A stretch of DNA of 64,000 bases from Isoetes taiwanensis (lineage: Eukaryota > Streptophyta > Lycopodiopsida > Isoetales > Isoetaceae). The position numbers were made by a program, and so were the translations under genes. Below, piece after piece: positions 26,652-64,000 of the stretch (positions are counted from its first letter, which is position 1; each line of letters starts with the position of its first letter). The notes beneath the pieces are model-generated. The model had not been told where the DNA came from. It saw only the letters and a list, made by a program, of their open reading frames with translations, and did no database searches. The stretch lies in assembly GCA_021234155.1 (NCBI GenBank), contig JAJEKV010000058.1, forward strand, positions 8,182,992-8,246,991, written 5' to 3'.

Positions 26652-29600
26652 ATGACGCAATCTTCGATCAAAATCCAAGAGCCAGGCTCAGGTTAGTATC
26701 TGTTGTTTCTATTCTTATCGATTTGTAGTGTCTTAGGTAACTAAAATGGCGCGGACGCGCCATTTCATTAGGAGAGGGTGGGCTTTTAGCAGCCTTTCCT
26801 CCTATAGTTTTGAAATGGCGCAGGTGCGCCATTTCCATAATGTCTGTTCATATTCTTATAGAAGCGGACCCATAGAAGAGCAAATGGCGCAGGTGCGCCA
26901 TTTAGTCTAAATGGCGAATCTGTGCCATTTGCTTTTCGAAGGGACCCATAATAGAGCAAATGGCGCACCTGCGCCATTTGCTCTATTATATAAAAGCTAA
27001 ATGGCGCAGGTGCGCCATTTAGTCTAAATGCTGTTTGCTGTTTTAACTTTCTAGCACATGCCATTTCTCTCACCATGCTTACCTCGCAGCGGCTAGTGCG
27101 CCGAAGAAATGGAACGTGGTGACATCGAGGAGCATAGTCCTCACTGGAAGGTCTTGGTGTATGGAGATCGTTAGAGCCATACCCTTGACTGAAGGCGTAG
27201 ACCCAACCGAGGGAGACAAGAGGCGAGAACTTTGCCTCCTTGTCAAATCAGGTACAGGTGAAGAAGGAGCCTCAGCCGTGGCCCAGATGGGCATCATTGT
27301 CAACATGAGGGAAGTCAAGAAACAAGGAAGACTTGACTTTCTTGGTTGCACAGTGGAAGATCCGGTCACTGGCAGCATTGATCTCTATTGCATGGATTGG
27401 CAGTGCTACGAGCCTGCAATGATGGAGTCCAGCATGAAGGACCAAGCACTGTCGGCCAAGAAAAAAGGTTGGCCGCTGCCATCTTATGAGTCCAGACAGC
27501 AAGCAGATATCAAAGGCACGGTAGAGATCCTGAAAGGATTCGGTATTCTGCGAGCGGCAATGGACATGTCCAAAAACTCCGTGTCCTACATTGTAAGAGC
27601 GAAGATCTCAGGCAACATGCCAGCAGTAATGGATAGCAGATGGCTGCTGGGAGAGATGCAGAGAAAAGGTGGAAAAGGTAAACCAGCCACCAGAGTTGCC
27701 AAAGTAGCAAAAACAGGCGGAGGTGATGAATTACAAAGGGATACAGAACAAGAAGGAGGACGAGACGATGAGAAGAGAGATGAGGATGATGTGCATCAGG
27801 ATGAGAAGAGGAATGATGTTGATGCTCATAAACATGATTCTCCTGTGAAGTCCACTAAGAAGCCTGCTGATGAGAGGTCTGCTGATAGTGACTGCACTAT
27901 TAGTGACAATAAGGAGGCTACAAAGCACATAAGAAATGTAGCATCCACAGCAGATAGCACTCCAGCAAAGAGAAAGCAAGAAATCAAAGCACAAATAAGG
28001 GCCAGGAAATTACAAAAGATTGCAGATCTTCAAGTGCCCGAGGAACTAAAGATGGACCGTGACGAAGAAGAAGAAATGGCAGAGGAAACACTAAAGAAAA
28101 TACAAAAGCACGGCCACATGTTCCCCCTTGGAGTCACATACACCAGAAGAATATCTATCTGGGATCTAGAAGAGGCCCCACCTAATATGACCGCCAGGGT
28201 TATTAACCCCGAGCATGTTAGGAGGCTCTGCAAATCATTTGCTGAGGATCCACACCCGGTATTCACTCCAGCAGATGTAGTGCCCTTTGATCCGGATACA
28301 AAGGAGTTGCTGAGCTGGTCACAGGAATCTGACCTGATTCGGAAAAGATTTTATATTATCAATGGTAATCATTCGGTCGCTGCTGCTCAGCTCGTGTGCA
28401 GTAAGTTCGGGACAGAGGATGCTAGAGCTGAGCTCAGCAAGATCTATGTCTATAGAATATGCAGAGTTCTTTCTGGAGAGATCAGTGACCTGGACCTTCT
28501 TCAGCTCAATGTGGATGTGAATGATATAGTAGCAAAGAATGTCTTCAAGGAACCATATGTGGATCAGATCCACCATCTTCGCAAGCAGTACCAGGAATGC
28601 GGAAGACCAGCCCCTGCTAGTAAAGGACAGTCAAGAAGCGACGAGTACAAGGTACGTTTACGTCTCCTTACCCATACATTTATCGAAATGGCGCAGCTGC
28701 GCTATTTGAGTTGAAATGGCGCAGCTGCGCCATTTGAGTTGAAATTGCGCAGCTGCGCCATTTGATGTAAATAGCGCAGCTGTGCCATTAGATGTAAATG
28801 GCGCAGTGCGCCATTAGATGTAAATAGCAACATTTGAAATTCTAAAATCGCCAGTTCTCTTGCAGCACTACCATGAAATGGCAGACAAGATTCTGAGGGG
28901 CAAACACACGAAGGATGTCAATCGGTTTGTCTTCATGCCAGATGATGTCTATGCACTCTTCCGCCAGATGTGGAACAAATGGAGGAAGGGAGAACTTAAG
29001 GACAATAGGGGTCAAGCTATAGTAATCAATTTTGCTAAAGACAAAGACTACTTCAGTGACAACTACCTTAGATGCATGAGGGGCTTGGACTATGATGATT
29101 GTAGAAAGGTCCTCGAAGAAGCTTTAAGCGGGGATATATACGTCAAAGTCACCTCAGATTACAAAGGCGATAATTTCTTCAAGACGAGGGCACAGAACTT
29201 AAGAGTACTTGCTTACATGAAGAAGGAGATACTGCACTTCATTGCAGATCAAATTGGCACTAAGTACAAGAAATTCGAGGACCTACGGAAAGCCACAGAC
29301 CACTTCTCAGATAAAGCACTTCTGGCTTGGGGGGTATGCCACCATAAGTGGGTACAGGAAGGAATACTCAAAGAGGGAGTTCATGGTAACATGCCATTCT
29401 CCTTGGCCAGGTCCATTCGAAAAATCCTTCAAGGACCTGCCAAGATGGTTTGTGGAGCATGTCACTGCCGGGAGGATTCCAAACGAACATGCGATTCTAC
29501 CGCCAAAGATGATATGTTTAGATGCAAGGCGACTTACTCCGGTTTGGAATAGTGAGATCAGAACGTTTCTTCGATAACGCCTCACGAGATGACGATGTAG

Positions 29601-30231
29601 AGACATCTTGGATTCTATGTTTACGCCAGTAGGAGCATAACTTACTATTTGCCAGTGCGTTTGAAAGACTAGAATCCGGTCAAGAGTGTTTGTAGGAATC
29701 TATGAAGAGGAGACTGGAGCTACGGTGGTTCAGAATCAAAGAGCCACAAGCTCTTCTATTTGCCTTTCACGAGGATTTCGGCACGCAGGCGGGAGAGCCC
29801 GACGAAGACACGAACCTCGGAGCTATCACGGCGACCATCCTAGAAAGCTCCATAAAATTCCTCCTATTCCTAAGGAAGCCATCGGAAGTGAGGGTGATGT
29901 TATGGCTAAAAACTCATGCAAGGCAGGGTTTAAGTGGAGTTGGCGGGGTATGGAGGGAGAATATCCGGGTGCATAAACAGATTGGTCCCGCAGAATCTGC
30001 GTTCTACCTTGTTGATAAGCTCGCCCTCAAGGTAACATCGTCTTGGATTTCTTCTCCGGTGGAGCCTTCTCTAGGGCATCCCTTCATGTAGGAAGAATCG
30101 GTGTGACATACGAGCATGAGTTAGGAAAGATGAAATGCGTAGCGGGCATTCTGGATAGGGTCGAGAACGTCATGTACCCATGGCTTGGCTTGACCCAAAG
30201 GCCATTGACCAACGCCAACGGGAAGTCTTGA
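26652..30231 (+). CDS. Gene 1: ParB-like / N6-N4 methyltransferase-like fusion protein
   Basis: Exon 1 (26652-26691, MTQSSIKIQEPGS) ends at GTTAGT and joins in frame to exon 2 (27090-28651) after CTCGCAG. Exon 2 ends at AAG/GTACGT and joins in frame to exon 3 (from 28866 after TTGCAG). The N-terminal ~200 residues are unknown, followed by a charged linker and a coiled coil. A ParB/sulfiredoxin-like domain lies at about residues 370-460: RISIWDLEEAPPNM, HVRRLCKSF, FTPADVVPFDP, FYIINGNHSVAAAQL. Exon 3 continues about 170 residues to a frameshift near 29400. Past one more shift at 30030, KLALK plus IVLDFFSGGAFSRASLHVGR matches motif I of beta-class N6/N4 DNA methyltransferases. A DPPY motif is not visible. 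Two frameshifts may be assembly error or decay. Confidence 0.55.
26736..27030. repeat. Palindrome cluster in gene 1 intron 1
   Basis: Six units of AAATGGCGCA-(GG or CC)-TGCGCCATTT and variants occur within the 398-bp intron. One unit near 26960 extends into a perfect 20+20 bp dyad (ATAATAGAGCAAATGGCGCA and its complement) around a CC centre. They belong to the same family as 17190-17490. Confidence 0.88.
28683..28830. repeat. Palindrome cluster in gene 1 intron 2
   Basis: Five head-to-tail units of AAATGGCGCAGCTGCGCC plus ATTT, separated by GAGTTG or GATGT, fill most of the 214-bp intron. Single-base changes (AAATAGCGC, CTGTGCC) accumulate toward the 3' end. Confidence 0.88.
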
Positions 30232-30239
30232 CTTTGCAC

Positions 30240-31050
30240 GATGGTGAATCTCAGAAGGGGGCAGACGAAGAAGCTACTCATCTGAGAAAGGTGAGACGTC
30301 GGGCAAAGCCGGAGCGAAAGGGATCAAATTGACCGCGATAAAATTAACACGGATGATTATGACAAAGTCTCGATGAACACTTCCCGGCAATGACTATTAA
30401 AAAAATTCTGTGTTTTGAAAAATTGTATCTTATATAATATTTCTATTAATATATATCTACATGGTCTTCTGAAAATATGTGTTATCTATAGCAAAATGGC
30501 ACGAGAGCACTATTTGCTTAGTCTTCACGTTCACGCAAATAGCGCGCCTGCACTATTTGCTCGCTCTACACCTTGAAGTAAATAGCGCGCCTGCACTATT
30601 TGCTTGCTTTCACGTTCAAGCAAATAGCGGCGCACCATTTGCTTCCTTTCACGTTAAAAATAAATAAGCGTTTGCGCTATTTGCTTTGTGGTTATTTCTA
30701 AACTAAAGGAGCGGCCGCGCCATTTTGTTTGCTTGCTGGGCCCTTTTTGGCAATTTAATATCTGCTTTTGTGGTTCTCGGGCCGCTTTTCCTCATACTTT
30801 CCAAGTAAATGGCGCCATACTTCTCTTCCTGACAACTAAAACCGCGCTGTTTTATATTAAATGTAGCGGTTTTTGCATGATAACTGGTTTCTTTTTAAGC
30901 AAATAGTGCCATATCTAGCCATAAATGTGTGATAAAACAGGGAAGAAACTGATTTCATGAGAAATTGGAATCACGAAATTTCCAACTTTAATGAAACTCT
31001 GCTTTCTTGGGGTTTCTCTTCAAAACCTCGAAAAAACTCTGCATGCAAGC
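30240..31050. other. Region 3' of gene 1 with degenerate palindromes
   Basis: No further coding frame is recognised. From 30494 to 30905, units such as AAATAGCGCGCCTGCACTAT and CAAATAGCGGCGCACCATTT are degenerate relatives of the intron palindrome. They suggest another intron or a decayed 3' part of gene 1. A partial unit of the next tandem array begins at about 30960. Confidence 0.55.
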
Positions 31051-31054
31051 TCTA

Positions 31055-33061
31055 GTTCGGCGATCCTTGCTAGCTCAAAATGTGATTTTGACTTTGGGCA
31101 TGAGTCCAGAGCATCTAGTTTACTGTAGGGACCAGTGATTATGACCAACAGAGCCAAACTCGATTTGCTACAAGCAACTAGTCTATCTTTCATTCGATGC
31201 ACTCTAGCCTAGTGCTATAATGTAAAGCTAGCACGTACTTGGCAGTCCGGGCGTTTGACCGATTCCCTACTCCTCAGACATGTGTCCTAGGGTAACTCTG
31301 GCCTTTTGGATGCAACCGCACAGTCGAAAATTTCGTTGCATGCCAACTGGCATGCTCCGGTCGCACAATGTCCAAAGCTCGCGCGCCATCACAATGGAGC
31401 AAGTTTGGAACTGGCACTTGGGGAGGTTTTTTTGTTCTTTTTCTTAAGGTCTCTCTTCGAACCCTCGAAGGAACCCTGCACGCAAGCTCTTAACCCCTTC
31501 AGAGGCAAGGAAGGCTGCCAAAACCTAAACCCTACAGATTTACTAGGGTTTAGGTATCGGGGGAATAAAACAGCTCCATTTATTAATCCCACCGTTCAAA
31601 TAGTAGTTCATGTTATGTGAAACATTCTCAAAAAGAAAAATTGGACATCCACCGCACGGATGTCCCAACCCTCAAATGTTCCCCTTTACGGACATAAGAC
31701 AAGAGGGGGAAATGATGTGCCCCTCCAGTTCGGCCATTCTTGCTAGCTCAAAATGTGATTTTCACTTTGGGCATGAGTCCAGAGCATCTAGTTTACTGTA
31801 GGGACCAGCGATTATGACCAACAGAGCCAAACGCGATTTGCTACAAGCAACTAGTCTATCTTTCACTCGATGCACTCTAGCCTAGTGTTATAATGTAAAG
31901 CTAGCACGTACTTGGCAGTCCGGGCATTTGACCGATTCTCTACTCCTCAGACATGTGTCCTATGGTAACTCTGGCCTTTTGGATGCAACCGCACAGTCAA
32001 AATGTCATTGCATGCCAACCGGCATGCTCGGTCACCTACAATGTCCGAGTTCAGGCCATCACAAGCGAACAACGAGCAAGTTTGGGCCGGCATTTGGGGA
32101 GGGTGTTTTGTTCTCCTTCTTAAGGTCTCTCTTCGAACCCTCGAAGGAACCCTGCACGCAAGCTCTTGACCCCTTTAGAGGCAGGGAAGGCTGCCAAAAC
32201 CTAAACCCTACAGATTTACTCGGGTTTAGGTATCGGGGGAATAAAACAGCTCCATTTGTTAATCCCACCGCTCAAATAGTAGTTCATGTTATAGGAAACG
32301 TTCTCAAAAAGAAAAATTAGACATCCACCGCACAGATGTCCCAACCCCAAATGTTCCCCTTTATGGACATAAGACAAGAGGGGGAAATGATGTGCCCCTC
32401 CAGTTCGGCCATTCTTGCTAGCTCAAAATGTGATTTTGACTTTGGGCATGAGTCCAGAGCATCTAGTTTACTGTAGGGACCAGCGATTATGACCAACAGA
32501 GCCAAACTCGATTTGCTACAAGCAACTAGTCTATCTTTCACTCGATGCACTTTAGCCTAGTGCTACAATGTAAAGCTAGCACGTACTTGGCAGTCCGGGC
32601 GTTTGACCGATTCCCTACTCCTCAGACATGCCCTAGGGTAACTCTGGCCTTTTGGATGCAACCGCACAGTCAAAAATGTCGTTGCATGTCAACCGGCATG
32701 CTCCGGTCGCACAGCGCGCCATCACAACGGAGCAAGTTTGGAACTGGCACTTGGGGAGGGTTTTTTGTTCTCCTTCTTAAGGTCTCTCTTCAAACCCTTG
32801 AAGGAACCCTGCACGCAAGCTCTTGACCCCTTTAGAGGCAGGGAAGGCTGCCAAAACCCTAAACCCTACAGATTTACTAGGGTTTAGGTATCGGGGGAAT
32901 AAAACAACTCCATTTGTTAATCCCACCGTTCAAATAGTAGTTCATGTTATAGGAAACAATCTCAAAAAGAAAAATTGGACATCCACCGCACGGATGTCCC
33001 AACCCCCAAATGTTCCCCTTTACGGACATAAGACAAGAGGGGGAAATGATGTGCCCCTCCA
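31055..33061. repeat. Tandem array, three units of ~675 bp
   Basis: Units begin at the phrase TTGCTAGCTCAAAATGTGAT (31071, 31744 and 32419, measured at TAGCTCAAAA), giving periods of 673 and 675 bp. Each ends in GGGGGAAATGATGTGCCCCT. Every unit contains CCTAAACCCT and AGGGTTTAGG facing each other 11 bp apart, a telomere-like inverted repeat. The minus-strand frames of 60-77 codons repeated in each unit follow the repeat and have no known motif. It is non-coding as far as I can tell. Confidence 0.88.
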
Positions 33062-33600: not shown

Positions 33601-33633
33601 CTCCCGCGCTCTGTTCAACCTTCCTCCCGCTCG

Positions 33634-34789: not shown

Positions 34790-36405
34790 CGTGGCACCAA
34801 CATGCCAAGGTGGCTCTAACATGCCACCTAGGCTCAAAACATGCCAAGGTGGCTCCAACATGCCACCTAGGCTCCAACATGACAAAATGGCTTAAACATG
34901 TCACCTAGGCTCCAACGCGTGCTCAAACATGCCACGCAGAGGCTCAACATGCCACCTATGCTCCAACTTGCCAAGGTGGCTCAAATATGCCACGTGGGCT
35001 CCAACATGCCACCTAGGCTCCAACATTCCTAGGTGGCTCAAACATGCCACATAGGCTCAAACATGCCATGCAGGGCTCACTTAGGCTCCAACATGCCAAG
35101 GTGGCTCCAACATGCCACCTAGGCTCAAACATGCCAAGGTGGCTCAAACATGCCACCTAGGCTCCCAACATGCCACCTAGGCTCAAACATGCCAGGTGGC
35201 TCAAACATGCCAAGATGGGCTCAAACATGCCACCTAGGCTCCAACATGCCACCTAGGCTCAAACATGCCAAGGTGACTCAAACATGCCACGTGGGCTCCA
35301 CCATGCCACCTAGCCTCCAACATGCCAAGGTGGCTCACAACATGCCACCTAGGCTTAAATATGCCAAGTTGGCTCAAACATGCCACCTAGGCTCCAACAT
35401 GCCACCGGTGGCTCTAACCCGCCACCTAGGCTCAAACATGCCACGTGGGCTCCAACATGCCACGTGCCAAGGTGGCTCCAACATGCCACCTAGGCTCCAA
35501 CATGCTCAAACATGCCAAGCTGGCTCAAACATGCCACCTATGCTCCAACTTGCCAAGGTGGCTCAAATATGCCACGTGGGCTCAAACATGCCAAGGTGGC
35601 TCAAGCATGCCACACAGGGCTCCAACATGCCACCTAGGCTCTAACATGGCAAGGTGGCTCAAACATGCCACGTGGTCTCCAACATGCCACCTAGGCTCCA
35701 ACATGCCAAGGTGGCTCCAACATGCCAAGGTGGCTCAAACATGCCACCTAGGCTCCAACGTGCTCAAACATGCCAAGGTGGCTCAAACATGCCACGTGGG
35801 CTCCAACATGCCAAGGTGGCTCAAACATGCCACCTAGGCTCAAACATGCCAAGGTGGTTCCCACATGCCAAGGTGGCTCCAACATGCCACCTAGGCTCAA
35901 ACATGCCAAGGTGGCTCAAACATGCCACCTAGGTCGCAACATGACAAAATGGCTCAAACATGCCACCTAGGCTCCAACGTGCTCAAACATGCCACGCGGG
36001 CTCCAACATACCACCTATGCTCCAACTTGCCAAGGTGGCTCAAATATGCCACGTGGGCTCCAACATGCCACCTAGGCTCCAACATTCCTAGGTGGCTCAA
36101 ACATGCCATCTAGGCTCCAACATGCCACCCAAAGCTCAAACATGCCGTGGCTCAAAAATGCCAAGGTGGGCTCAAACATGCCACCTAGGCTCCAACATGC
36201 CAAGGTGGCTCAAACATGCCACGTGGTCTCCATAATGCCACGTGGGCTCCAACATGCCAAGGTGGCTCAAACATGCCACCTAGGCTCAAACATGCCAAGG
36301 TGGCTCCAACATGCCATCTGGGGCTCCAACATGCCAAGGTGGCTCGGGCATGCCACCTAGTCTCAAGCATGCCACCTAGGCACCCCAAGTGGTGACATGG
36401 CATGC
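34790..36405. repeat. ~19-bp satellite, left arm
   Basis: Roughly 80 units of C(A/T)(C/A)AACATGCCA(AGGTGG or CCTAGG)CT occur. The apparent ORFs (HAKVAQTCHLGSN-type peptides) are by-products of the repeat, whose stop-free frames shift from unit to unit. Confidence 0.9.
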
Positions 36406-39369: not shown

Positions 39370-40235
39370 AGTCATCATGCCCACATGGCATGTTTGAGCC
39401 ACCTTGGCATGTTGGAGCCTAGGTGGCATGTTGGAGCCACCTTGGCATGTTTGAGCCTAGGCGGAATGTTCGTGCCTAGGTGGCATCACCTTGGCATGTT
39501 GGAGCCACCTTGGTGGCATGTTTGAGCCACCTTGGCATGTTTGAGCCGAGTGGCATGTTTGAGCCACCTTGGCATATTGGAGCCTAGGTGGCATGTTGGG
39601 AGCCCATGTGGCATGTTTGAGCCACCTTGGCATGTTGGAGCTTAAGTAGCATGTTGGAGCCCACATGGCATGTTTGAGCCTCATGTTGGAGTCTAGGTGG
39701 CACGATGGAGCCCACATGGCATGTTTGAGCCACCTTGGCATGTTGGATCCTAGGTGGCATGTTTGAGCCTCATGCATGGCATGATTGAGCCACCTTGGCA
39801 TGTTGGAGCCTAGGTGGCATGTTGGAAACCCACATGGCATGTTTGAGCCACCTTGGCATGGTGGAGCCCACGTGGCATGTTTGAGCCACCTTGGCATGGT
39901 GGAGCCTAGGTGGCTTGTTTGAGCCACCTTGGCACGTTGGAGCCTAGGTGGCATGTTTGAGCCACCTTGGCACGTTGGAGCCCACATGGCATGGTTGAGC
40001 CACCTTGGCATGTTGGAGCCTAGGTGGCATGTTTGAGCCACCTTGGCATGTTAAAGCCTAGGTGGCATGTTTGAGCACCCTTGGAATGATGGAGCCTAGG
40101 TGGCATGTTTGAGACACCTTGGCACGTTGGAGCCCATGGCATGGTTGAGCCACCTTGTCATGTTGAAGCCTAGGTGGCATGTTGGAGCTTAGGTGGCGTG
40201 TTTTGAGCCATATTGGCATGTTGAGCATTATGGGT
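39370..40235. repeat. ~19-bp satellite, right arm (inverted)
   Basis: GGCATGTTTGAGCCACCTT and GGCATGTTGGAGCCTAGGT alternate about 45 times. This is the exact complement of the left-arm units. Confidence 0.9.
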
Positions 40236-49929: not shown

Positions 49930-52600
49930 CTTTCCTTTTTATCAATAAAAATTCTTTTTCAACTAGAACTTTGGTTTCAATCTGTAATGAATTTCCTTTG
50001 TTTGAGTTGTATTGTTCTTGTTCTCGACTCGCTATCCGAGAAATCTGGGAGAAAGCTCGAACCCACACTAAGAGACAAATATTCGAATTATGGGCAGTTT
50101 TCGAGTCAGAGTTCTTTTTTTTGTGTAAAATAACAGGGTTCCAAAAAAAAGTGGGAATGGAATGAGACCCGACTTGTAAGAATTCATAGTATGTTTTATT
50201 CATTTTTCATCCGATGAATTAAATTCTACTAATGATTTGGTTTAAACTCCTATGATATGCTTTCAAAAAAAAAACTTTGTGAAAGTTACTGGAATTTATT
50301 TGGTATGCTCTGTTCATCTGTTACAGAAGCAAGCTGTTGCCATTTAATTGAACTAAAGATCTTTCCAGGTATTCAAATGATCATGTTGAACACATTTCCA
50401 AGATCAAACTGATGGTTTAGAAACTTATATCCATTTAGTCATCCTAGTGTAGAGAATGATTGCAATGCATAATGCCACGGTTCTATTGCGATAGCAATAA
50501 AACCGACATTCCTTGGATGGGGACGCCCCTTGTTGCACTCCCTATTTATTCAGCCTCTTTCATTGTTTCGTCATCGGCGTTCTCTTGAGCTAGGTTTTTT
50601 CATCTTCTCTATCCTACCAATTTGTCCTACCTCCTTCATTCTTCTTGCTCTTTCTTGCTGTTTCCCACTGCTTACCGGATTGGATTGCGCTTCAGTTAAA
50701 CCGTAGCTCTTTTATTATTTGAGATCTCTGGCGGTTTTCGTTTTCTTCCCTTTGTTAGTTCTCTTCTCTGTGGATGGAGTTTGGGCTTTATCAAGCTCGA
50801 GTCTGTTTCGAGCGGCCTAACCTCATCGGTGAGGTATGCACATTTGATTGGGTTCGGTTCTAACAGTGGTTATTTGATAGCCAGGATTTGGTTTCTGCAT
50901 ACTCGGAGTATGGTACTTTCTAGCCTGGATTCAGTACCTTGAAGCGGCAGCCGGGGTTTCATCAGAGAGGGGTTTTTCTGCTAGCCTGGGTCAACTTGCT
51001 GGAGCCGAGATGGTCCCACTAAGAATATGACCAGACTAGACTCAGTTTGGTATTTCTGTTCCCTGTGCACTTTATATCGATGAGCAAGGCTTTCTTGTCT
51101 ATATAATCATATCATTCCATGTGCGCATATGTTAAGTTCGTTTATCATGCCTTAGAGGTGTGTATTTTTATGTTTGGGCATACCTGTCCATAATCTGTCC
51201 CATGTGGTTGTAGTTTGTTTTTCTTTGTCTACTCGAATGTTCTTTGCTTTGCAGTTGACTTGACATATTGTTTTCTTAATTAAAAATCTGTTCTGATCTT
51301 TTCCATACTGTGAACATTCACATTAATCTTAGTGCACTAATCCTCTTATTCATTATCCCGTAGAAGTTTAGCATGCATATATTTTATGGCTTTTGGTGCT
51401 TGCTCTTGTTTTGCTCCATGGGTTACTTTAGACTTATATCCTCTTTTAGGACTCAGTCCATTCCTTTTGCAACTGCACATAGCTTATATTTGTACGTCTT
51501 GGTATTCCCTCACAAAGTTTCTTATGGTGCTCGATTTACTTAATTTCGTTTTGTTTCATTTGGTCGGTTGTTGGTTTCGCTGTTTGTTGCCTTAGTTATT
51601 TAAATAATAATACTTTGGCCATGACCTGTCTTACTAAGTTCCTTTTTTGTGGTGTATCAACTTGGTGCATTCTTCGGCGTTGCATACATTTGGTACTTTA
51701 ACCTACACTAATCCATATATTCGTTGTTGGATCTTGTTGCTCAGGTCAATTTACAGTTTTGGCAAGGCCATTTATATTACTTCATTTTAAATAAATTTTA
51801 GCTTGGCATGTTCATTCACATTACTTTATCATTTGTTACTTAGATCTAGTTTGTTTCTGTGCTACATACAGATGTTGGATCGTTTCCTTTGATTTTTGGT
51901 TTTTTTTGTTGCTATTTTACATGTTTCTTACATAGTTCTTTGCATTTTTTCCTTTGGATGCCCTCTTGTCTTGTTTCTGGAAGATCGAGAATTCGAATGT
52001 GATCCCTTTGGGTTAATCTTTGCTATGGTTGACTTAGCCTTTCTTTTTGCTCTTGTTTCTTTGGTTCTATTGTTTCATTTATTCTATATATGGCATCAAT
52101 CTGATGTTTCTAGTTGCTCCTGTTGCTGCTTTAGCCATAGTCTCCTTTTACTCCATCCCTTTGCTTTATTGTTATTGGTGGTCGTAATTCCTTTGCTCGC
52201 CTTCATCCCTCTAGAAAGTGCAGGACTAGTTTTCATATTTGGCTTCGTGTAATAGTTGAGGGATAGTTGTTGTTTCACGAACTGAGGTATGTTGGTTGAA
52301 GTCCAGTTCTTTGCTTTTCCTGAGGAGTAATTGCACCTCAGTTGTGATGTGATTATGGTACATTTAGAGTCGGTATTTTATTTGTTTTAACTCCTCTTGG
52401 TGAGCTTCTCAGGGGGTATTTGCATCAATAACATGCCTGGGCAAGACCAAGTGATCAATCTTGGTCGATCAGGAGCCCACGAATCTTCGTAGATTTGGTT
52501 CCGTCTCCATTCATCAGTGGATATCGACATTGTTATGGCCGTTGCTTTATCGGTAGAGATGGATGGTTGCATACATCTTGATTAAGGTTCGACCCCCAGT
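49930..52600. other. Long T-rich non-coding stretch
   Basis: No gene is recognised. Frames such as 51896-52252 are Leu/Phe/Val-rich because of T-rich composition, not because of recognisable membrane proteins. Positions 50500-50800 are pyrimidine-rich and might be an untranslated leader or a retroelement LTR fragment, but no second LTR or tRNA-binding site was found. Confidence 0.5.
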
Positions 52601-52631
52601 TTTTGCATTTGAAATGCCCTTTAATTTTCTC

Positions 52632-53592
52632 TAATCTCAAACCTTGCATTCAATGGTTTTTGCATTCAAAAGGCCCCGTATATATTTTCTCTAACCTCAT
52701 GTGTTGCATTTGATGCCCTTATATGGTTTTTTGCATTTTGAAATGGCCCCTGGATTTTCTCTAATCTCGAACGTTGCATTTGATGGTGTTTGTATCGTAA
52801 GTTGATGTAATTTCACTTCGTTGGAATGCGGTTGCTTGTTTAAGCAAACATCTGGGGGGTGAATGGAAGGTTAGAAGGATTTTATTGGTCTTCTTTTGCA
52901 AGTTATGTGATTCACAGTTTTATTGCTTGTTGGTATTATATCGTTACGTGATTTGGTAGTTTGATGTATTTTTCATGAAAAATGGTCCACTCTCTCCATT
53001 CTGACGTGCTTGTATTTTTCATTTGGTACTATTTTCATTTGCCTCGTCACTTCCATTTCTTTTGTATATCGCTATTATTTCTCATTTCTTATTCCTATTT
53101 ACTCCATGGCTCCATGACACTTTTTCCAGGCTTCTGGTGCCATTGCTCACTTACTCATTTGTTATCTTTGTACACGTTGTGTCCACTTTGGCTGTGTTCG
53201 CTTCTACTTCGCATGGATATCTGATCCCTTGGTGCTATTTGCCCGTTGTTGGTCCCTTTAGCTCTCAAACCTTGCATTCGATGGTTTTTGCATTCAAAAG
53301 GCCCCGTATATATTTTCTCTAACCTCATATGTTGCATTTGATGCCCTTATATGGTTTTTTGCATTTTGAAATGGCCTCTGGATTTTCTCTAATCTCGGAC
53401 GTTGCATTTGATTGTGTTTGTGTCGTAAGTTTATGTAATTTCACTTCGTTGGAATGCGGTTGCATTTGGAATGCTTGTTTAAGCAAACATCTGGGGGGTG
53501 AATGGAAGGTTAGAAGGATTTTATTGGTCTTCTTTCGCAAGTTATGTGATTCACAGTTTTATCGCTTGTTGGTATTATATCGTTACGTGATT
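52632..53592 (+). repeat. ~330-bp direct repeat, two copies spaced ~305 bp
   Basis: Positions 52632-52953 and 53260-53592 share AACCTTGCATTC-ATGGTTT, AAAAGGCCCCGTATATATTT, GTTTAAGCAAACATCTGGGG and GGTTAGAAGGATTTTATTGG in the same order. The second copy has a ~10-bp insertion. GTTTAAGCAAAC is a small dyad. The repeat is non-coding. Confidence 0.85.
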
Positions 53593-53773
53593 TAACCATC
53601 ATTCATTTAAATTGGATTTATGTCAGGATTTTGGACCATTTTGGCACTGCAACTTTTTCCCGGGTTAGTAAATTTGCATCGAGAATGTGACTTTTTTTTT
53701 TATAACAGCACAACATGATTGCATTAAAAATTAAAAATATTTCACATATGCATGTCGAGTTACATATTGCCAA
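53593..53773. other. Spacer 3' of the DUF7869 transposase
   Basis: AT-rich, with a T9 run at 53692. There is no gene; it may contain the 3' end of the neighbouring minus-strand transposase. Confidence 0.4.
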
Positions 53774-56601
53774 TTACTTCTCGGAATTGACCCCTAGAGA
53801 TATCATAGCTTTCTTCCTCACTTCCACAGGTATTGTAACCCTAGCAGTCTTGCTTGGGATGACCTTTGGGGTCCATGAAAACAAAATAGTATCTAACTCA
53901 ACCCAATCATCACCTTCAATAGGCTTTCTCTTCCATTTCTTTGTCCAACAGTCTCTATACCTTTCTTCCTCTGCCACTGCATTTAACTGGTGCACTGGAC
54001 ACCACCACTCCACACGAACTTTGTTCACATTGCGGTCACCTACTTCTTTGCAAACCTCTGAGATGGTGTAACCCATCCACACAGGGTATATCTCTTTGCG
54101 CTCTGGTACTATAAGTGCAAATTGATGGCAAAGCAAGTCATCTTTCGGATCATAATCCTTTCCTAGGACCAACATAGTGTTTTTCAGCAGCTGGAGGAGC
54201 CATGGACTTGCGAATACTACTAACCACATCATCAGCTTCCTCGGGTAATATCAAGTCTCTCCACCTAGTCTTAGGTAGCCATCCATCTTTGAGTTCATCA
54301 GAGGATGTGTCTACTTGTCCCAATAATCCATGTACCTGTGTCCAATAATCTATCAATGCAAGGTTGGTATCATCGGGGTTATTTTTCCAATACTTGATGT
54401 ATTCAGAAATGCCGTCCAATGTGCTTTGCAATGAATCCACCTCTGGAAAAGGCTTAAGAGCTTTTGGTTGACCCCTTGGAATCTTAGGTTTACCATTTTC
54501 ATCTTCGTGCCATATAGGTACTCCCTCATCTGGCCTCCATTTATCATCTGAAGGTCTCATCTTCCATTGCATGATTGGCTTATTTCCCATGACCCAGAAA
54601 GTGTACTGAAGAGGTCTAGATTGACCTTCCATATCAAGAGCATAACCTTCGATAAAATTCTTCCAATCAGGCACCTCTTGTATGATCAACCCTATAGGAG
54701 AAGGTGAAATGCATTCACTAAGAACTTCCATTAGTCTAGGAAGATTGGTCACAGTTTGAGATTTCAACTGCGCACTATACTTCCCAAACAATGCATCCAC
54801 ATCCTCATGAGTATGTCCAGGCATTAAGAACCCTAAATTCACTCTTTCAAAGACACCCACGGCTGTTAAATAAGATAGGAATGAGAACATATACCTGTTT
54901 TTATTCTGTCCAGCACAATTGTCAAGTTGGAGGAGGAACCTTGGTGGTAGATCTCGAGGTTGGGGACGTGAACTTGAGGCTCCAACATGTTCAGAAGCAC
55001 CTGACTTCCTAAACCTTGCCTTAGTAAACTTCTCTAAATTATTAGGCTTTCTATCCAACAATGCACTGAAGAGTGGTTGGCTACCACCTCCAGGGTTGTG
55101 GAGGTCACCGGAATAACCACTCTCATAGTTCCTCAAGCACCTCATCACACTTCCAATATGAAAATCAGGACCATCACTCCACAATTGCAAACTAAAATGG
55201 CCATAATAAATTGGCACCCTGCCATGCACTATTGCACTGTCGTCGGAGAGACTTGCAAAGGATAAGCTCTATTGATTTGCTTGGGTATGTAACTATCTTG
55301 GGCAAACAAGTCTTCGATTGATCCATCTTGTCATGTATAATACAAACATAGTTATTGGGTTCCAAACATGATAATGTTCTCCACATCCAATAAGTGGATC
55401 TACATGATGGTCTATCATGTGATCTTTCATTTGCTCCCTTATCTTAGCCCTTTGGCTTGGTTGCTTGGTCTTATCAAGAATCTCTTTCAACTTAGCACAC
55501 AAGTTGCACTTTGCAAAGTTGTTCGGTGTCTATAGTGACATGCTTGAAGTGCTTGCTCCATAGTCTCATGGGAAATTTGGGTTGAGATATTGCAGGTACC
55601 TGTAGTTCTCGAAGCAAAGCATTGACTTCCTCCAATATGCTCTTCTGGGTACAATGGGATGGCAATCTCTTCTCGACAACTATTTTTCCCTGTTGATCTT
55701 TCCTACTTTTATGTGGCATATTCTCAGCATTGAATTCAACATATTTTTCAAAAACCTCCCTAGCAGCCAGGATCCTAGAAGTTGGCCTCAACATGCCATT
55801 ATTTCCATGTAATACAATTTTACTCCCCTTTGCATGACTTGCTTGCCAATTTTGCCAAGTTGAAATTGGAATGCCATGAATATGTATCCATGCAACTTTA
55901 CATATCCATATCCCTAGCAGTGGGTATTTTTTTTTCTTTGGAAATTGTTCATCTTGAAGTGCAAGCTCATGAATGGAGTACATGTAAGTCCTCCTCTCAT
56001 CACAAGTATACTCTTGGAAGGTGGCTCTTGCTTCCACCAATTCATCAATTTCAAACTTCTGAATACAATTAGCCCAACAACATTCCATTCCCCTTACCTT
56101 AGTCAGAGCTTCACGTGAACAATCACTACTTGACTTGGACCTCTTGCTAGGATAATGTTTCACCAATGAGTGTGCCCTCTTCTCTGAAAATGTGGTCCTG
56201 GCAGCTATTGGAGGTGCATTAAGAAAATCAGTGTCATCCACAACCTCTGGCTCTGGTAAAAGGAATTCTCCTATAAACTCAATGCAGGCTATAGGCCATG
56301 GCATGACGCATGGAACCTCCAATTGTTTAATACAAGCAGTGCAATCCTGGTGATTTGATCCATTTTCCTTCCATTTTTCCTCTAAACTTGTTATGGCCAC
56401 ACCCACTTTATCCTCTCCTAACCTTTCATCATTGACAGCCTGGATAGGATCAGCTAGTATGATAGTTCCTTCACCTACTAGCTCCTTATTGCATTGGTGC
56501 TTCACTTTCACCTTCTTATTCTTCCAATCCAACCTACTGTAGAGGACAATTTGCTTAGTAGTCTCAGCCTCAACACCCTTTGGGAGGTCCACAGCATTGA
56601 C
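53774..56601 (-). pseudogene. DUF7869-type transposase, second subfamily
   Basis: On the minus strand, an exon starts after TGTTCTTGTAG at about 56601 and runs 366 codons. It holds a Cys pair region (DCTACIKQLEVPC), ECCWANCIQKFEIDELVEAR, IPISTWQNWQASHAKGSK and MPHKSRKDQQ. Further frames give KLKEILDKTKQPSQRAKIRE, VCIIHDKMDQSKT, YGHFSLQLWSDG, LQLDNCAGQNKNRYMFSFL, GHTHEDVDALFGKYS and VEWWCPV...YRDCWTKKWK. The domain order and spacing are the same as in copy 2 at 13.5-16.1 kb, but sequence identity is moderate, so this is another subfamily. Frameshifts occur near 55495, 55390, 55240 and 54190. The HDKMD, LDN and HEDVD acidic residues are kept. An upstream exon is expected but not found. Confidence 0.7.
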
Positions 56602-57736: not shown

Positions 57737-57776
57737 TTTTTTTTTTTTGTTTTTGTTATTTAGTTTTTGGATCAGA

Positions 57777-58165
57777 AGAGCGAGCTAGGCATCTCCTTAA
57801 ACTGCCTAGAACTTCTGTAATTTTGTAACACAGAGCTGGGCATCTCCTTAAACTGCCTAGAACTTCTGTAATTTTGTAACACAGAGCTGGGCAACTCTAA
57901 TAAAAGGCCTTATGTAAACTTTTTCAATGGCAATACAAGGATTTACTGACTGCAATATGTTTCTTTAGTTTCTACTCTAACTTGAAAGCAGAACTGTAAT
58001 TTCTGCAGAAGCTGTTTTGAATTCTGGCAACTCAAATAAAAGGCCTTATGTAAAAATGTTCAATGGCAATACAAGGATTAATGACTGCAATATATTTCTT
58101 TAGTGTCAACTCTAACTTGAAGGCATAACTGTAATTTCTTCAGAAACTGTTTTGAATTCTGGCTC
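57777..58165 (+). repeat. Duplicated 3'-end segments with AATAAAAGG signals
   Basis: GCATCTCCTTAAACTGCCTA plus GAACTTCTGTAATTTTGTAA is duplicated (57790-57895). Then a ~137-bp unit starting AATAAAAGGCCTTATGTAAA is duplicated at about 57898 and 58036. Both longer units carry an AATAAA polyadenylation signal, so this looks like a duplicated 3'UTR of the gene at 57255. Confidence 0.75.
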
Positions 58166-58170
58166 TTTAA

Positions 58171-58383
58171 TTCTTAATTTTGAGAGAGCTGAAGTGAGAT
58201 CACGCCAGGCGCGAAATATGTTTATGTACAAAATGTTTAAATTGTCAAGCGGTCAATACACGCGCTGGCGTGAATTACACCACGATAATTAGCTTTATGC
58301 GGTTCACGCCCGGTGTATTGGATCTGCACAATGTAAACATTTTGCACACAAACATATTTCGGCCGCGGCGTGATTTCACTTCT
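58171..58383. mobile_element. MITE-like element 1
   Basis: The left end AATTTTGAGAGAGCTGAAGT plus GAGATCACGCCAGGCG pairs with the right end GGCGTGATTTCACTTC. The inner arms GAAATATGTTTATGTACAAA and TTTTGCACACAAACATATTT are also complementary. The right end stops at CACTTC, so the outer right terminus is missing. No coding capacity. Confidence 0.65.
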
Positions 58384-58451
58384 ATGAAACGATTAGACCT
58401 GAATTAGTAAACGGCACCATGCTCTGCTTGATCTATCTAATTCGATCTTTC

Positions 58452-58606
58452 ATTCTTAATTTTGAGAGAGCTGAAGTGAGATCACGCAGCTTTATGCATT
58501 TCACGACAGGCGTGTATTGGACCTGCACAATGTAAACATTTTGCACACAAACATATTTCGCCGCTGGCGTGATTTCACTTCAGCTCTCGAATTTAAAATG
58601 ACGGTC
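58452..58606. mobile_element. MITE-like element 2
   Basis: TTTTGAGAGAGCTGAAGTGA plus GATCACGC at the left end and GCGTGATTTCACTTCAGCTC plus TCGAATTTAAAA at the right end form ~28-bp terminal inverted repeats. The middle shares GGCGTGTATTGGA-CTGCACA with element 1 but lacks much of its left arm. No open frame. Confidence 0.65.
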
Positions 58607-59640
58607 TGACTTTCAAGAAATTACAGATCTTGCTTTAAAAGTACGATACAGGATACGCGCATGGCATTTAAGTTACAACTGAATGGTATTAGCTCATGGC
58701 GCTTGGTATTAGCTCATGGCCGTGCTATGGAGGGGCTTGAATTGGAAAATGCTAAGCTGATAATTAGAGTTCGCACCACCACGGTCGCACTATTTTATTT
58801 GCCGAATCTTGAGGAACAACACACGCATTAATAACACCTAGATAAATAACACCTGATATGTAATTAAAACAATGTAAAGAATGCCATCCATGTAAAGAAT
58901 ATCCCATCCATGTAAAGAAAATGTTTTTTTTGAATTCACAGATGCTCAGTGCAGGGCCTTATATTTTTGCAATATTGAAAGAATGGTGCGGCATGCAAGC
59001 CTTTTAATTTCATACATATGGCGAGAATCGGTTTGTGCATTTTAGTATGAGCACTCAATCTTCCTCTATGTCTTCCAAGAAAATGAAACTCACCTTCTTT
59101 AAGCGAATTCATGGCCATGCAACAAAGGTTCGATGCTTTCACCCATTGTGTCTCCATCGGGGATGCCTTACGGGTAATGCTTCGTCATTGAAATGGCAAC
59201 TGGTTACTAGAATCTTCACATGATCATTTCCAAGAGGAACTCCATGGCAGATTGCTTCCGGATCGATTGATTCTATCTTGCAATTTCCCACCCTCCTCTT
59301 CAAATTCGTCGTCAGCATGTAGCATTCTTCCCCAACGCTGTTCAATGTCGCAAGATTGTGGGATTAATTTGGAGCTTGGGTTCCGGAAGAGTAGATGAAC
59401 TTACATGAAGGCGCTCGACATCGCTCAGGCGCCGGCTTCTTCCCAGTTCTTCTGAGTTCTTTCGAGTTCTTCTTGTTCTTCCAAGTTCTTTCGAGTTCGA
59501 ATGACAAGAAAGGCTGGCGGCAAGATTAGGTGGTAGTTTCAAATTATCCGTTAATTGTATGCTTTGCTTTTCTAGCCAAAAGTGAAATCTAATTATGGGA
59601 TTTGACAATACGGTGATTAGTGGGAGCCATTTATCGCTTT
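58607..59640. other. Spacer upstream of gene 2
   Basis: No gene is supported. It contains a small AATGTAAAGAATNNCATCCA repeat (58870-58920) and a GTTCTTCCGAGTTCTTTCGA repeat (59445-59500). Confidence 0.5.
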
Positions 59641-59679
59641 CGTCGCGATGGAGTGTCCCGGCCCATTAGACCCAATCGT

Positions 59680-59840
59680 AAGATTGCTAACCGTCGATGA
59701 AAAGTCGATCCGCGAAATTTAAATATCCGCTCCCTTCTATCGGACCGTCGATTAGAAGTCGATCCGTGATATTTTAATAACCGCTCGCTTTTATCGGACC
59801 GTCGATGAAAAGTCGATCCGAATGAAACCCGTCGATCTAA
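59680..59840 (+). repeat. ACCGTCGATGAAAAGTCGATCCG repeat in the gene 2 promoter
   Basis: Four units, about 60 bp apart, of CCGTCGATNAAAAGTCGATC. Each contains a GTCGAT...GTCGATC direct pair. The last unit ends about 30 bp before the TATA box. Confidence 0.85.
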
Positions 59841-59867
59841 AGCCGACCTAATCGCCTTATGCAAATC

Positions 59868-59876
59868 TATATAAGT
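59868..59876 (+). promoter_or_regulatory. TATA box of gene 2
   Basis: CTATATAAG lies 71-79 bp upstream of the ATG at 59947, at the end of the promoter repeat block, which leaves room for a ~45-bp leader. Confidence 0.55.
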
Positions 59877-59946
59877 TTTTGAATTCCATTTCTTGCTTTT
59901 TGATTGTCGACTTGCTCCGAGACGCTCAAGAACTCCTATCGCGAAG

Positions 59947-62900
59947 ATGCCGTCCAAAGGTCGTGCTGCTCCAAACTCAGGCCGGGCCGCGAGAGAAGAT
60001 GCTCAAGGTCAGTATTGTCATCGATACATTATTGTTATTCATTCATTGTTCATTGCTCTGTATTTCTTGTATTTGCTCAGTATCTTACGCCTATGCTCAG
60101 ATTTGAAGTGACTTAAATTTCTATAGGCTGGCGACACTCCACCTATCATTTCTTTAGCTGCTCATTTCTCTGGCGTGACTTGTATTTGCATCTCGCATAA
60201 TAAATGTCCTTCACGTGTTAAATTGTCCTACTCGTGATTAACCTGTTACGTCTATAATTTGTAAAGTAGTATGACCGTGTTTAATTGGCTGCCTTCGATT
60301 GTGTGGTTGGCATCTTTGTAATTGGCACGCCTTTATGAGTGCATGTCGTAGAATCGGGATCAGTATGCCATTCGGTGCTTTAGCCTGGCCGGAATTGATG
60401 ACCACCCGAAATCGCGCTAAGCGTGTATTGCACCGTCGTTTGCAGGGAAGAAGAGACAAAACCGAATGACTGTTCCTACACCTCCTCCTAAGAAAGCAAG
60501 AGGCTCGGAAGATACTCCAATGAGCTCCGACTCCACGTAAGAAGGGAAAGCCCAATGAGGACGCAGTATCCTATGCATTGTCGATGGATGATAGCGGATC
60601 CATTATTAGAGCAGACACAGATCCTCCATGCCTCGAGGAGAAGATGGATGACAGTGCCGAGTGGTATGTTGATGTAGGCAAAACAAATGGTAAGGTGGAT
60701 CTTGTGTTACACTCCAGAAAGAAAGAGACCGATCTTATGAAGAAACAAGGTATTCTTATCACTTGTGAGGAGCAGGATGACATCTGTTGTCAACTCCTAG
60801 TGGAGGTTGTGAAGAACCACAAGAAAGATCTCGTCAGATTTACACATGCCAGGGCAACTTCTTTCAAAGATGGTCTGATGAAGAAGGACGTGAGTGCTGA
60901 GTCATGTTTCAAGTACGGATGGCCTCAAAATACTGCCATCAATCCAGTTTCTATTAGTGAAGGGGTGTCTGCAGTGAGGAGAGCTTTGCGAGGACCTTCT
61001 CCAAGTTACTACCTGGAGGAGATGAAGCATCAAAATGATATCAGGGATGTACGAAGATTGCTGGACTTAGGAAAGGACATCCCCGCTTTTTAGATTGATG
61101 GCATTTTGGCGAAAAATGACTCCGAAAAGAAATTGCAGCTGGAGGCAATGAGTAGGCTAGTCAAGTATGCAGACAACTACCCACTTGGCCAATCTTTTAC
61201 ACATCCCATCCATGTTGACCGTCTGGTGAGATCACATAAGTCAAGTCTTGTTAGCAGGATGTATGACCCTGAGCACGCAAGAGAAATATTGAGGGCGATG
61301 GTGAGGAATCGAGCCAAGTTCACGCCGCCAGACGTGCTTCCTTGGGATAAGAAAAAGGATGCTCCACTCCGATTGGACAACACTAGAAGAGCTAACCGTG
61401 GAGAACCCTAATGTATGCTTCCTTATTATTGACTGACAAAGATTCTATTGAGGCACAACGATCCCTATCCAACCGGGCTAAGCAAACCCGGGACAAACAA
61501 TGTATCTGCTGCATTACAACCACGGGGAGGTGTCGGTTTCTAAGCCCCCATACCCTAGAGAGGGACACGCGGGAGATTAGTGCAACATTGAACGAAATGG
61601 GCGAAGTCTTTCTTTATAAAAGGTTAGTATATTTGGTGGAATAGAGTCAGATATATCAAGTAGCAATAACAGTAGTATAGTAGGTCCAGCGTTTGTCAAG
61701 GCGTCCCAATTCGCACTTGGCGTGAATTCCGCTTGCCAATTGGCGCTGGGGGTGTATTAGATCCGTAATTGTCACCATGAATACACGTCGGTAGTGCCAA
61801 TGAATCATTTTCATCAGTGGACGAATACACGCCCGGCTTGAATCTGATGGCTTGCCAATTCGCGCTGGCGTGTATTCATCTTTGCCTATTAAAGGACGAA
61901 TACACCAGTATAAATTCGGCGCTGGCGTGTATTCATGCTGCCTATTCGCGGACGAATACACCCGGCCCGAATTCGCGCCTGGCGTGTATTCATGCTGCCA
62001 ATTCGCGCCTGGCGTGTATTCGTCCGCGAAATGTCAGGATGAATACACGCCCGGTAGCGGATTGGCAACGCATCGCCTTTGACGTTTCTGATTATCCCGT
62101 TTGCTTGATCTAAAAGCGGTTAACTTTTGTATGCCCCGCTCATATTGGTGACATGCTTTCCTTACACGTGCAGCCCTTTACGTGGAACAACTCCGTCATG
62201 CCCGCCAAAGAATGGATAGAATATGGAAGACCCCGCAAAACAAAACAGGAGGAACGAAGTCCGAGGAGTTTAAGGCATTGGAAAAGACCTTGGCTCGGAC
62301 TATCATCCAAGATAGGAAACCAAGAGCAAAAAAACAAAAAAAGCGGGAGGAAGCGGAGAGACGTGCAAGGCGGCTTCTAGAGGTCCCTGAGATGCCTACA
62401 AGATCGTCTTCGCTAAGGACAAAGTCCGGGCGAAGTGGAACGAAGTTCACAGGATGCTTATGCTTCGAGAAATGCCTACCCGGACCCAATGGGACGAAGT
62501 GCCTCCTCAAGATACTTCAATATTTGATCTCAAGACTACCAAATGAGGAAAGTACAGGGCCTCCAAGATGATGAAATCATTTGGTTGTTAAATCAATGCA
62601 TAAACAAAGAAGTTCTGTACAAGAAGGCTTCTTCAGTTAAGGACAAAATGTCCTTCATTGATTGTTGCACTCATATAAAGAACATGCGAGTTATGAAGGT
62701 AGCAGTTGGTGAAGAACTTCAGAAGCTATCTGGTGATGTAACATTGTCTGAAGTCGGCCTGCTAGACAAGTATGGCGTGTCTGCTGATGACATCAAGAAA
62801 TACGTCTTTTGGTCGAAGGAATTTCTGCAAAACAGGAAATCAAAGAACCAACAGCACACCTCAAAGCTATCAGATAAGGTGATGGCTGAGCTCAGAAGAA

Positions 62901-64000
62901 AGGTTACCGTCCTAAAAGATATTGGTGGTGACTTACCTGCAGTCCAATACCTGGTCTCTACTGGCTATAAAGGTCTCCTACCCGATACAACAATAGGCCC
63001 TCGTAATATTTCTCTGTTTGTATTGGATAGCAGGACTGCAAAAGGAGAGAAGGGGATGACTCAACAGGAGTACAGCAGTTTTTTTAGTAGCTGCATAGGC
63101 TTAACAACTCAGAAACTCTTTACTATTGTCATCATATGCCCCCCCCAGGAGAGCCTCATATGCATGCTTTGATGGCTTCATACGACTTGGAATGCCTAAA
63201 GGTCGTTAGGGAAGGCTCTCTTCTCTTTGAGACAAAGGATACTGATTTGAGGATGCAGTATAAAAGCGCTTGTATAATCTTCATAATGATATCCCTTGTG
63301 CCAGATGACGACTATGAGGTAGCTAAGAGCAAAGGGGCATCGGATAAAGGTGCATGGCAGTGTTTTCTTCTGGATGAACCCAACTTGAAAAATGTCTTCT
63401 ATAAAGCAGATGATGAGGATGAAGAAAATGAATGCGAGGAATTTGATGTTCCTAACCTCTACCGCAAAGACATCACTCTGGAATTGCTGACAAAAGAAAA
63501 GGGACCCTTGAATAAACATGGGTTTGCAATCAATCTGGCAAGCTATCTTGTTGAGGCATTTGCACCACTTGATACCACTTGCTGTGAATTGCATGTTGGA
63601 GGGTATATTGGTAGAGAGGCCCTGAAGACATCAAGAAGATGTTTAAGTTTCGTCAACGATGACCAGCCCAGGGATTTCCTTGAAGTGTTTTTCGAAAAGG
63701 TACTAGCCACGGCTGATTGGGGTCCTGTGAAAGATAAAAAAGTGTTGGCTTTGGTACCTTACGAAGGGCAGAAGCAGAATACTAGTTCACAAAAGCCTCC
63801 GAGTGCAACTCCAGAATGTTCAAAAAGCAATGCAACCCCCGAGGAGAAGGCCGAAATGCTAGAGCGGGAACGTGAGAGCATGGAGAAAAATTTGGCGTCC
63901 ATGCTTGATAACATTCCAGGTCGTAATGTCCAGGTTGGGGGTACGAGTGCGGCAGTTCCTGATACCAGCCAGGAAGATCATGCAAGCTCAGATGCAACCA
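59947..64000 (+). CDS. Gene 2: diverged paralogue of gene 1, ParB-like / methyltransferase-like (runs off window)
   Basis: Exon 1 (59947-60007, MPSKGRAAPNSGRAAREDAQ) ends at GTCAGT and joins exon 2 (60446, after TTTGCAG: KKRQNRMTVPTPPPKKARGS). Frames then give LGQSFTHPIHVDRLV, MYDPEHAREILRAM, FTPPDVLPWD and VCFLIID...SIEAQRSLSN, matching the gene 1 ParB-like domain. Intron 2 is 61623-62173. Exon 3 has LYVEQLRHARQRM...SEEFK, matching YVDQIHHLRKQ...SDEYK. A frameshift at a C8 run (63139-63146) leads to an open frame from 63151 to the window end, with YLVEAFAPLDTTCCELHVGG and REALKTSRRCL aligning with motif I of gene 1. An in-frame TAG at 61091 and several frameshifts make an intact product doubtful. 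Confidence 0.5.
61690..62060. repeat. Palindromic array in gene 2 intron 2, GAATACACGCC / GGCGTGTATTC
   Basis: At least five copies of AATTCGCGCCTGGCGTGTAT plus TC in one orientation and four to five inverted copies GAATACACGCC(C)GGC lie within 370 bp, separated by GCTGCCTATTCGCGGAC-like text. Adjacent forward and inverted copies can pair into hairpins. Relatives of the unit (GGCGTGTATTGGA) occur in the MITE-like elements at 58.2-58.6 kb. Confidence 0.85.

Follow-up and report, generated by a model that had tools for sequence, protein, structure and literature searches.

Two genes with ParB-like and methyltransferase-like regions in Isoetes taiwanensis lie within large, high-copy DNA transposons

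A stretch of 64,000 nucleotides of the genome of the lycophyte Isoetes taiwanensis (assembly GCA_021234155.1, contig JAJEKV010000058.1, positions 8,182,992 to 8,246,991; hereafter the window, numbered from its first letter) contains two genes, gene 1 and gene 2, which an initial annotation had described as a two-member family fusing a ParB-like domain to an N6/N4 methyltransferase-like domain. All of the motifs named for these genes were found by translation on the plus strand at the implied positions: INGNHSVAAAQL (28358-28393), YVDQIHHLRKQ (28556), SDEYK (28637), MRGLDYDDCRKVL (29076), and IVLDFFSGGAFSRASLHVGR (30037) in gene 1, and LIID (61422), SIEAQRSLSN (61444), YVEQLRHARQR (62179), SEEFK (62260), VQGLQDDEIIWLL (62552), and CCELHVGGYIGREALKTSRR (63580) in gene 2. 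Each gene lies within a DNA transposon of more than 11 kb, element 1 or element 2, and the pair is transposon cargo misread as a gene family. The best explanation of the window, with a probability put at about 0.75, is a pair of large cut-and-paste DNA transposons that belong to one group as different members and that each carry an accessory gene.

Copies of both genes were sought in the host genome assembly (1.66 Gb, 1,110 contigs). The gene-1 frame matched at least 89 genome pieces from 78 scored places, and the gene-2 piece matched at least 151 from 150 scored candidates; both counts are lower bounds and include the window copies themselves. Twenty gene-1 copies were sampled at 10 kb each, with another 8 kb upstream for four of them (L009, L012, L016, and L019), and the sequence past the window end was followed for 6 kb and then 10 kb more (L033 and L034) for the continuation of element 2. 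Relatives of gene 1 are referred to as family 1 and those of gene 2 as family 2, for which four copies were read (L131, which is the window copy, L132, L133, and L134). Family 1 was aligned in two parts, A1 with nine rows for the ParB side and A2 with ten rows for the remainder of the protein.

Element 1 occupies positions 11721-31004. Its terminal inverted repeats, AAGCAGAGTTTCATTAAAGTTGGAA at 11721-11745 on the plus strand and its partner at 30980-31004 on the minus strand, share 25 bp, the left end being an inverted copy of the right, and both ends start with AAGCAGAGTTTCATT. They are flanked by a TCTT target-site duplication (11717-11720 and 31005-31008). The same ends are found in other genome copies. 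A sharp right boundary equivalent to window position 31004-31005 was read in 8 of the 20 gene-1 copies, and both ends were located in the window copy, L012 (with L032), and L019 (with L030), giving lengths of about 11.3, 12.4, and 11.7 kb, respectively; the duplications in the latter two are TATA and TTGT. No left end was found in L009 or L016 within the 18 kb examined for each. The segment at 17802-25763 (7,962 bp) is a nested insertion because the sister copy L009 runs uninterrupted across exactly that point, and element 1 measures 11,322 bp after this insert is subtracted.

Element 2 starts at position 53594 and runs through the end of the window to 65141 (in L033), a full length of 11,548 bp. 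Its ends, which start with AACCATCATTCATTT, are perfect inverted repeats of 31 bp (53594-53624 on the plus strand, with the partner at 65111-65141). The perfect inverted match itself spans 32 bp (53593-53624 and 65111-65142, E value 1.5e-11), one base of which belongs to the ATTT target-site duplication (53590-53593 and 65142-65145). The target is a tandem repeat with a unit of about 630 bp, and one unit at 52635-53264 carries a single ATTT and represents a paralogous empty site: the joined flanks of element 2 align to it with 95% identity over 641 columns. This tandem repeat is included in a T-rich part of the window (50000-54000) with an AT skew of about -0.3. The ends of elements 1 and 2 are similar by eye (AAGCAGAGTTTCATTAAAGTTGG and AACCATCATTCATTTAAATTGG).

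In both elements, a minus-strand gene encoding a DUF7869 domain lies to the left of the plus-strand ParB-methyltransferase-like gene. In element 1, this transposase-like gene is present as broken frames at 13853-16137, with DUF7869 at 14461-15291 (Pfam E 2.5e-31) and a helix-turn-helix piece at 15296-15772 (HTH_29, E 5e-5, under the curated cut-off). A partial extra copy of this transposase half lies at 2226-5230 on the minus strand, with 95.8% identity to 11778-14786 and a DUF7869 match of its own at 5013-5309 (E 3.4e-24). In element 2, the DUF7869 frame is at 54153-55268 (E 5.7e-36), and upstream of it on the same minus strand is an open frame of 369 amino acids (55495-56601) which has no Pfam match. 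The two aligned DUF7869 frames both conserve LDN.AGQNKNR and GHTH.D.DALFGK, and these residues, plus a D located upstream in element 1, resemble a DDE catalytic set. We infer that the DUF7869 gene is the DDE-type transposase, and the indirect nature of this assignment counts against the transposon reading given above. The term DUF7869 was not found in the open-access literature searched.

Terminal inverted repeats and 4-bp duplications are present in all four copies with both ends located (TCTT, TATA, TTGT, and ATTT). The target-site duplications of Sola2 transposons are described as 4 bp long and AT-rich (PMC3627910), and those of the elements studied here are alike in both respects; this likeness is one of description, not of transposase sequences. 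Sola1 is recorded in the moss Physcomitrella (PMC9033089).

The initial annotation had favored a horizontally acquired or domesticated gene family of the host with two members. The low ratio of nonsynonymous to synonymous substitution rates (dN/dS) between subfamilies would suit a host gene family. This explanation is nevertheless very improbable in view of the number of matching pieces, the stop codons present in 64 of the 89 listed for gene 1, the terminal inverted repeats, the target-site duplications, the empty site, and the relaxed dN/dS among close copies. "Two-member" and "domesticated" therefore describe neither gene, as both belong to high-copy transposons. At the level of the locus, the better match is to a transposon family, because the sequences are high-copy and have terminal inverted repeats and target-site duplications; the reading of the protein domains may survive.

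The dN/dS values were calculated pairwise for family-1 copies without stops that covered at least 60% of the query, in three parts of the protein: the ParB side, the middle, and the motif-I part. Stops or shortness removed 9 of 21, 9 of 20, and 6 of 19 copies for the three parts, respectively, and 46 of 66, 31 of 55, and 69 of 78 pairs were kept, the remainder being excluded because dS was zero or saturated or because the pair shared too few codons. The medians for pairs with dS above 0.4 were 0.080 (8 of the 46 pairs), 0.097 (6 of 31), and 0.110 (33 of 69), and among close pairs (dS of 0.2 or less) they were 0.43 (18 pairs), 0.31 (14 pairs), and 0.77 (28 pairs). Family 1 has been constrained between subfamilies and relaxed after insertion, as is typical of the source genes of transposons. 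Two features of these data reduce their weight for the transposon reading. First, many dS values were saturated and many of the retained values exceeded 1.5; therefore, only the direction of the result is safe. Second, the transposase sample is tiny, with one and three copies per piece and three pairs (median 0.618).

Gene 1 begins with an exon at 27047-28651 which encodes the N-terminal part and the ParB-like region, including the box II sequence INGNHSVAAAQL; it belongs to an open frame of 555 amino acids (27047-28711) that is conserved across family copies, and conservation in A1 is strong around FPLGVTY...FYIINGNHSVSAAQ. A predicted intron (28652-28865, bounded by GT..AG) begins right after SDEYK, contains GGCGCA palindromic repeats, and has matching exon ends in other copies. 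The helical and methyltransferase-like part follows at 28866-30372 on the same plus strand. Its frame is broken after about 29440 in the window copy and is open in L016 and L021: L016 has 521 and 528 amino acids in two exons, and the second exon of L021 has 531. Palindromic repeats of the type AAATGGCGCAGGTGCGCCATTT occur in the gene 1 introns and flanks at 26730-27020, 28690-28830, and 30490-30700. The short basic exon that had been proposed at 26652 was not borne out, as an exact search with 18 bases at its splice donor matched only 1 of the 20 other family stretches (L013).

Gene 2, also on the plus strand, has its N-terminal and ParB-like region at 60524-61408, with a stop at 61091-61093. 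Remains of box II (LIIDKDSIEAQRSLSN, in two frames) follow at 61420-61630; the motif IIDGQHSIEAQ (IIDGQHSIEAQRSLSN) is open only in the sister copy L133, damage at this site being present in the other three copies read (the window copy, L132, and L134). The linker, helical, and methyltransferase-like region starts at 62179, runs to the window end at 64000, and extends to about 64143. Near 63140-63147, the frame of the window copy slips within a C run, a defect absent from L132, L133, and L134. The window copies of both genes are decayed, gene 2 more so. An intron-like stretch of gene 2 at 61660-62060 carries short repeats (TGGCGTGTATTC/GAATACACGCC) of a different type from those in the corresponding place of gene 1.

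The shared architecture proposed for the two genes held for its ParB side and became weaker toward the C terminus. The ParB-side blocks matched each other in a tblastn comparison (E 3.3e-8), and window positions 61094-61408 matched the gene-1 family in hhalign at E 2.4e-6, a score equaled by none of 24 shuffles. These results indicate a kinship on the ParB side beyond chance. The C-terminal block gave an hhalign E value of 0.027, again equaled by none of 24 shuffles, and the YVDQIHH/YVEQLRH linker gave a tblastn E value of 0.16. The gene 2 piece at 62528-63169 alone failed against the gene-1 family, with 11 of 24 shuffles scoring as well in hhalign, and the two C-terminal pieces of gene 1 found no tblastn match in gene 2 at E values up to 1.

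The C-terminal block weakly resembles N6/N4 DNA methylases. Pfam N6_N4_Mtase matched 3 of the 10 A2 rows (at E values up to 10), at best with E 0.0017 in L021 (18.8 bits, under the curated cut-off of 26.7) and with E 0.1 in L016; the match covers positions 160-212 of the 221 in the profile, at its C-terminal end. A PHROGs DNA methyltransferase profile matched one of the two family-1 members scanned (E 3.4e-4). A tblastn search against phages returned 37 records at E values of 4 to 10, 36 of which were related Mycobacterium phages, and all 15 of the 15 matches listed were annotated as methylase or methyltransferase. When A2 was compared with 83 methylases from phages and viral contigs, hhalign aligned them at motifs X-I with E 8e-4 (probability 24.5%), and a joint profile in which 6 of the 10 A2 rows were combined with two rows of family 2 gave E 1.8e-4 (probability 48.8%); crossed control comparisons gave 0.22 and 0.074.

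The beta-class methyltransferases are characterized by a motif I with an FxGxG-like loop that binds S-adenosylmethionine (SAM) and by a catalytic motif IV of the form DPPY or [DNS]PP[YFW]. Family 1 has DFFSGGAF or DFFSAGAF at motif I, which is close to the consensus, and family 2 has the changed sequence ELHVGGYI. At motif IV, LDARQ is present in eight and LNARQ in one of the nine A2 rows covering the site, and LDSRT is present in all four family-2 copies. None of the sequences read at this site in either family has the catalytic DPPY. Gene 2 had been considered degenerate at its methyltransferase motifs, and it is not alone in this, since family 1 lacks DPPY as well.

Because neither family has DPPY, binding of SAM or DNA is the most likely role of the domain, rather than catalysis as an active amino-methyltransferase. 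An alternative of lower likelihood is an accessory protein with DNA N6-adenine or N4-cytosine methyltransferase activity, used to mark the transposon, with LD[A/S]R as a variant catalytic motif. Such activity would agree with the conservation of the motif-I region between subfamilies, with a brown-algal relative described as a predicted N4-methylcytosine/N6-methyladenine methyltransferase (PMC12477816), and with a gene just beyond the window that retains DIPY and FSGLG motifs. The replacement of DPPY in every family-1 row and family-2 copy covering the site and the altered motif I of family 2 argue against it, and the favored reading is that the accessory protein regulates the element by binding DNA and probably does not methylate it.

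The gene beyond the window lies outside element 2 at 69325-70344 in extended coordinates (L033:5325-6000 and L034:1-344). It is a further methyltransferase-like gene with the motifs DIPYGF and GFSGLGAT, its motif IV being nearer to the classical form. One piece of it matched Pfam N6_N4_Mtase (E 0.0088) and another gave an hhalign E value of 0.0017; compared with the gene-1 family profile, it scored no better than shuffles.

The ParB-like assignment rests on a box-II-like motif, on the homology between the families, and on a published analogue. Box II of ParB proteins consists of G-x-H/R followed by a basic residue. Family 1 has IINGNHSV.AAQ, with NGNHS at the center, and one family-2 copy (L133) has DGQHS; S takes the place of the usual R in these sequences.

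Several results weigh against both domain assignments. First, for the methyltransferase-like part, the family-2 proteins have no Pfam methyltransferase match, and 3 of the 10 A2 rows have a rival weak match to an integron cassette protein (M1E1E6-like, best E 0.0099). The methylase match spans motifs X-I only, and another hhalign match between gene 2 and the methylases (E 0.0074) falls elsewhere in the profile. Second, for the ParB-like part, a profile search found no ParBc match in any of nine family-1 members, and the ParB side has no support from Pfam, NCBIfam, or the PDB. An hhalign comparison with a reference set of 13 ParBs, all of the P1/N15 type and taken from phages and viral contigs, gave non-significant E values of 0.038-0.085 (controls, 0.074 and 0.22). 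With the ParB core as query, tblastn returned only a capsid gene from phages (E 7) and only a glycosyltransferase from plasmids (E 0.07). Third, neither part had a credible PDB sequence match, the best being a synthetic pentatricopeptide repeat protein (E 0.0039). AlphaFold predictions from two-row, window-only alignments, among them that made for DUF7869, failed, with confidence scores (pLDDT) of 38 and 43.

The role of this protein in transposition can be viewed in different ways. In both elements it is encoded on the plus strand, with the DUF7869 gene on the other strand, and it is constrained in family 1; this would also be expected if it were the mobility protein itself, or if it formed a split transposase machinery jointly with DUF7869. 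This explanation is unlikely, as no nuclease or DDE family was matched by the protein in Pfam, PHROGs, or NCBIfam, and the brown-algal analogue adjoins a separate Sola-1 transposase (PMC12477816). An endogenous viral element in place of a transposon is less likely by far: the domain combination is phage-like, but the elements have clean transposon ends and 4-bp duplications, and pattern scans of IMG/VR that used alignments of the ParB side, the methyltransferase side, and DUF7869 gave no relative, viral hallmark genes not having been sought individually.

Under the transposon reading, the DUF7869 transposase would cut and paste the element. The accessory gene product would consist of an N-terminal region, a ParB/Srx-like domain, a helical linker, and a methyltransferase-like domain of the beta class, in which motif IV precedes motif I. 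It may bind the DNA of its own transposon through the ParB-like part, and its methyltransferase-like domain may read or mark the DNA of the element. In this way, it could help in pairing of the ends or shield the element from silencing by the host.

Family 2 apparently has an additional domain. A phosphatase-like domain of the NIF/FCP1 type is found downstream of its methyltransferase-like region (L133:121-477 and L134:3136-3615), with Pfam NIF matches above the curated cut-off in L133 (E 7.8e-6) and L134 (E 5.5e-7) and another L134 piece at E 0.019; in a PDB sequence search, the NIF piece found a HAD hydrolase only (E 0.58). The domain appears to be joined to the family-2 protein through an intron: in the continuation of the window copy, AG|GTAATT..TTTAG|G would splice it in frame. 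L132 lacks that AG. A tentative extension, rather doubtful at present, is that a group of land-plant transposons has adapted the ParB-methyltransferase of prokaryotes as a sensor of their own DNA without catalytic activity (LD[A/S]R). In one family, this sensor would be joined to a phosphatase domain resembling FCP1, with RNA polymerase II or chromatin as possible targets. Such a protein would be a self-regulator of silencing or transposition, kept by selection.

The closest published system is Sola1-1_Ec32 of the brown alga Ectocarpus, described as a 21.5-kb transposon with a protein of 1104 amino acids that carries ParB and DNA methyltransferase domains and is encoded opposite the transposase strand (PMC12477816). 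By description, and not by comparison of sequences, the elements studied here resemble it in exceeding 10 kb, in placing the accessory gene opposite the transposase, and, to the extent that the weak domain matches hold, in combining a ParB-like domain with a methyltransferase-like one, which in the algal protein is predicted to be of the N4mC/N6mA type. They differ in having a plant host and a length of 11-12 kb; furthermore, their transposase is recognized only as DUF7869, DPPY has been lost in both families, and family 2 adds a NIF-type domain. In the same paper, comparable proteins carried by transposons of green and red algae are cited (Iyer et al. 2011; Petroll et al. 2025), and such algal proteins are regarded as perhaps forming a new class of accessory proteins; by its description these are the same kind of protein, in a different host group.

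Compared to phage proteins, the similarity is one of domain pairing. A survey of the ParB fold reports that fusions with N6_N4 methyltransferases are frequent in phages (PMC12704722), and the ParB-CTPase and N6_N4 methyltransferase fusions of phages and prophages represent the same domain pair. The phage methylases match Pfam N6_N4_Mtase strongly in three examples, whereas the proteins studied here do not, and tblastn found no full-length similarity between these proteins and the phage collection. No report of ParB-methyltransferase transposon cargo in land plants was found in the open-access literature searched. The layout is known from algae; the plant host, the loss of DPPY, and the phosphatase-like tail of family 2 are new here.

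Other features of the window were also observed. The nested insertion in element 1 has inverted ends of its own (ATTAGAGGTAATTTGAGATCTC), and its frame at 20731-21468 matches the NAC (NAM) family (E 4.4e-6, 27.6 bits with a cut-off of 27) and, weakly, a HAD hydrolase, as if pieces of host genes had been captured; the NAC match fits a plant host. Large tandem arrays in opposite orientation at 34790-36380 and 39380-40230 each yield long open frames in which a short peptide is repeated.

Without the transposon context, annotators would take both genes for plant gene families. Since DPPY has been lost in two diverged families, it may be asked whether these proteins still methylate DNA or only bind it. 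The presence of such cargo at high copy in a plant genome widens the range of ParB-methyltransferase cargo beyond the brown, green, and red algae.

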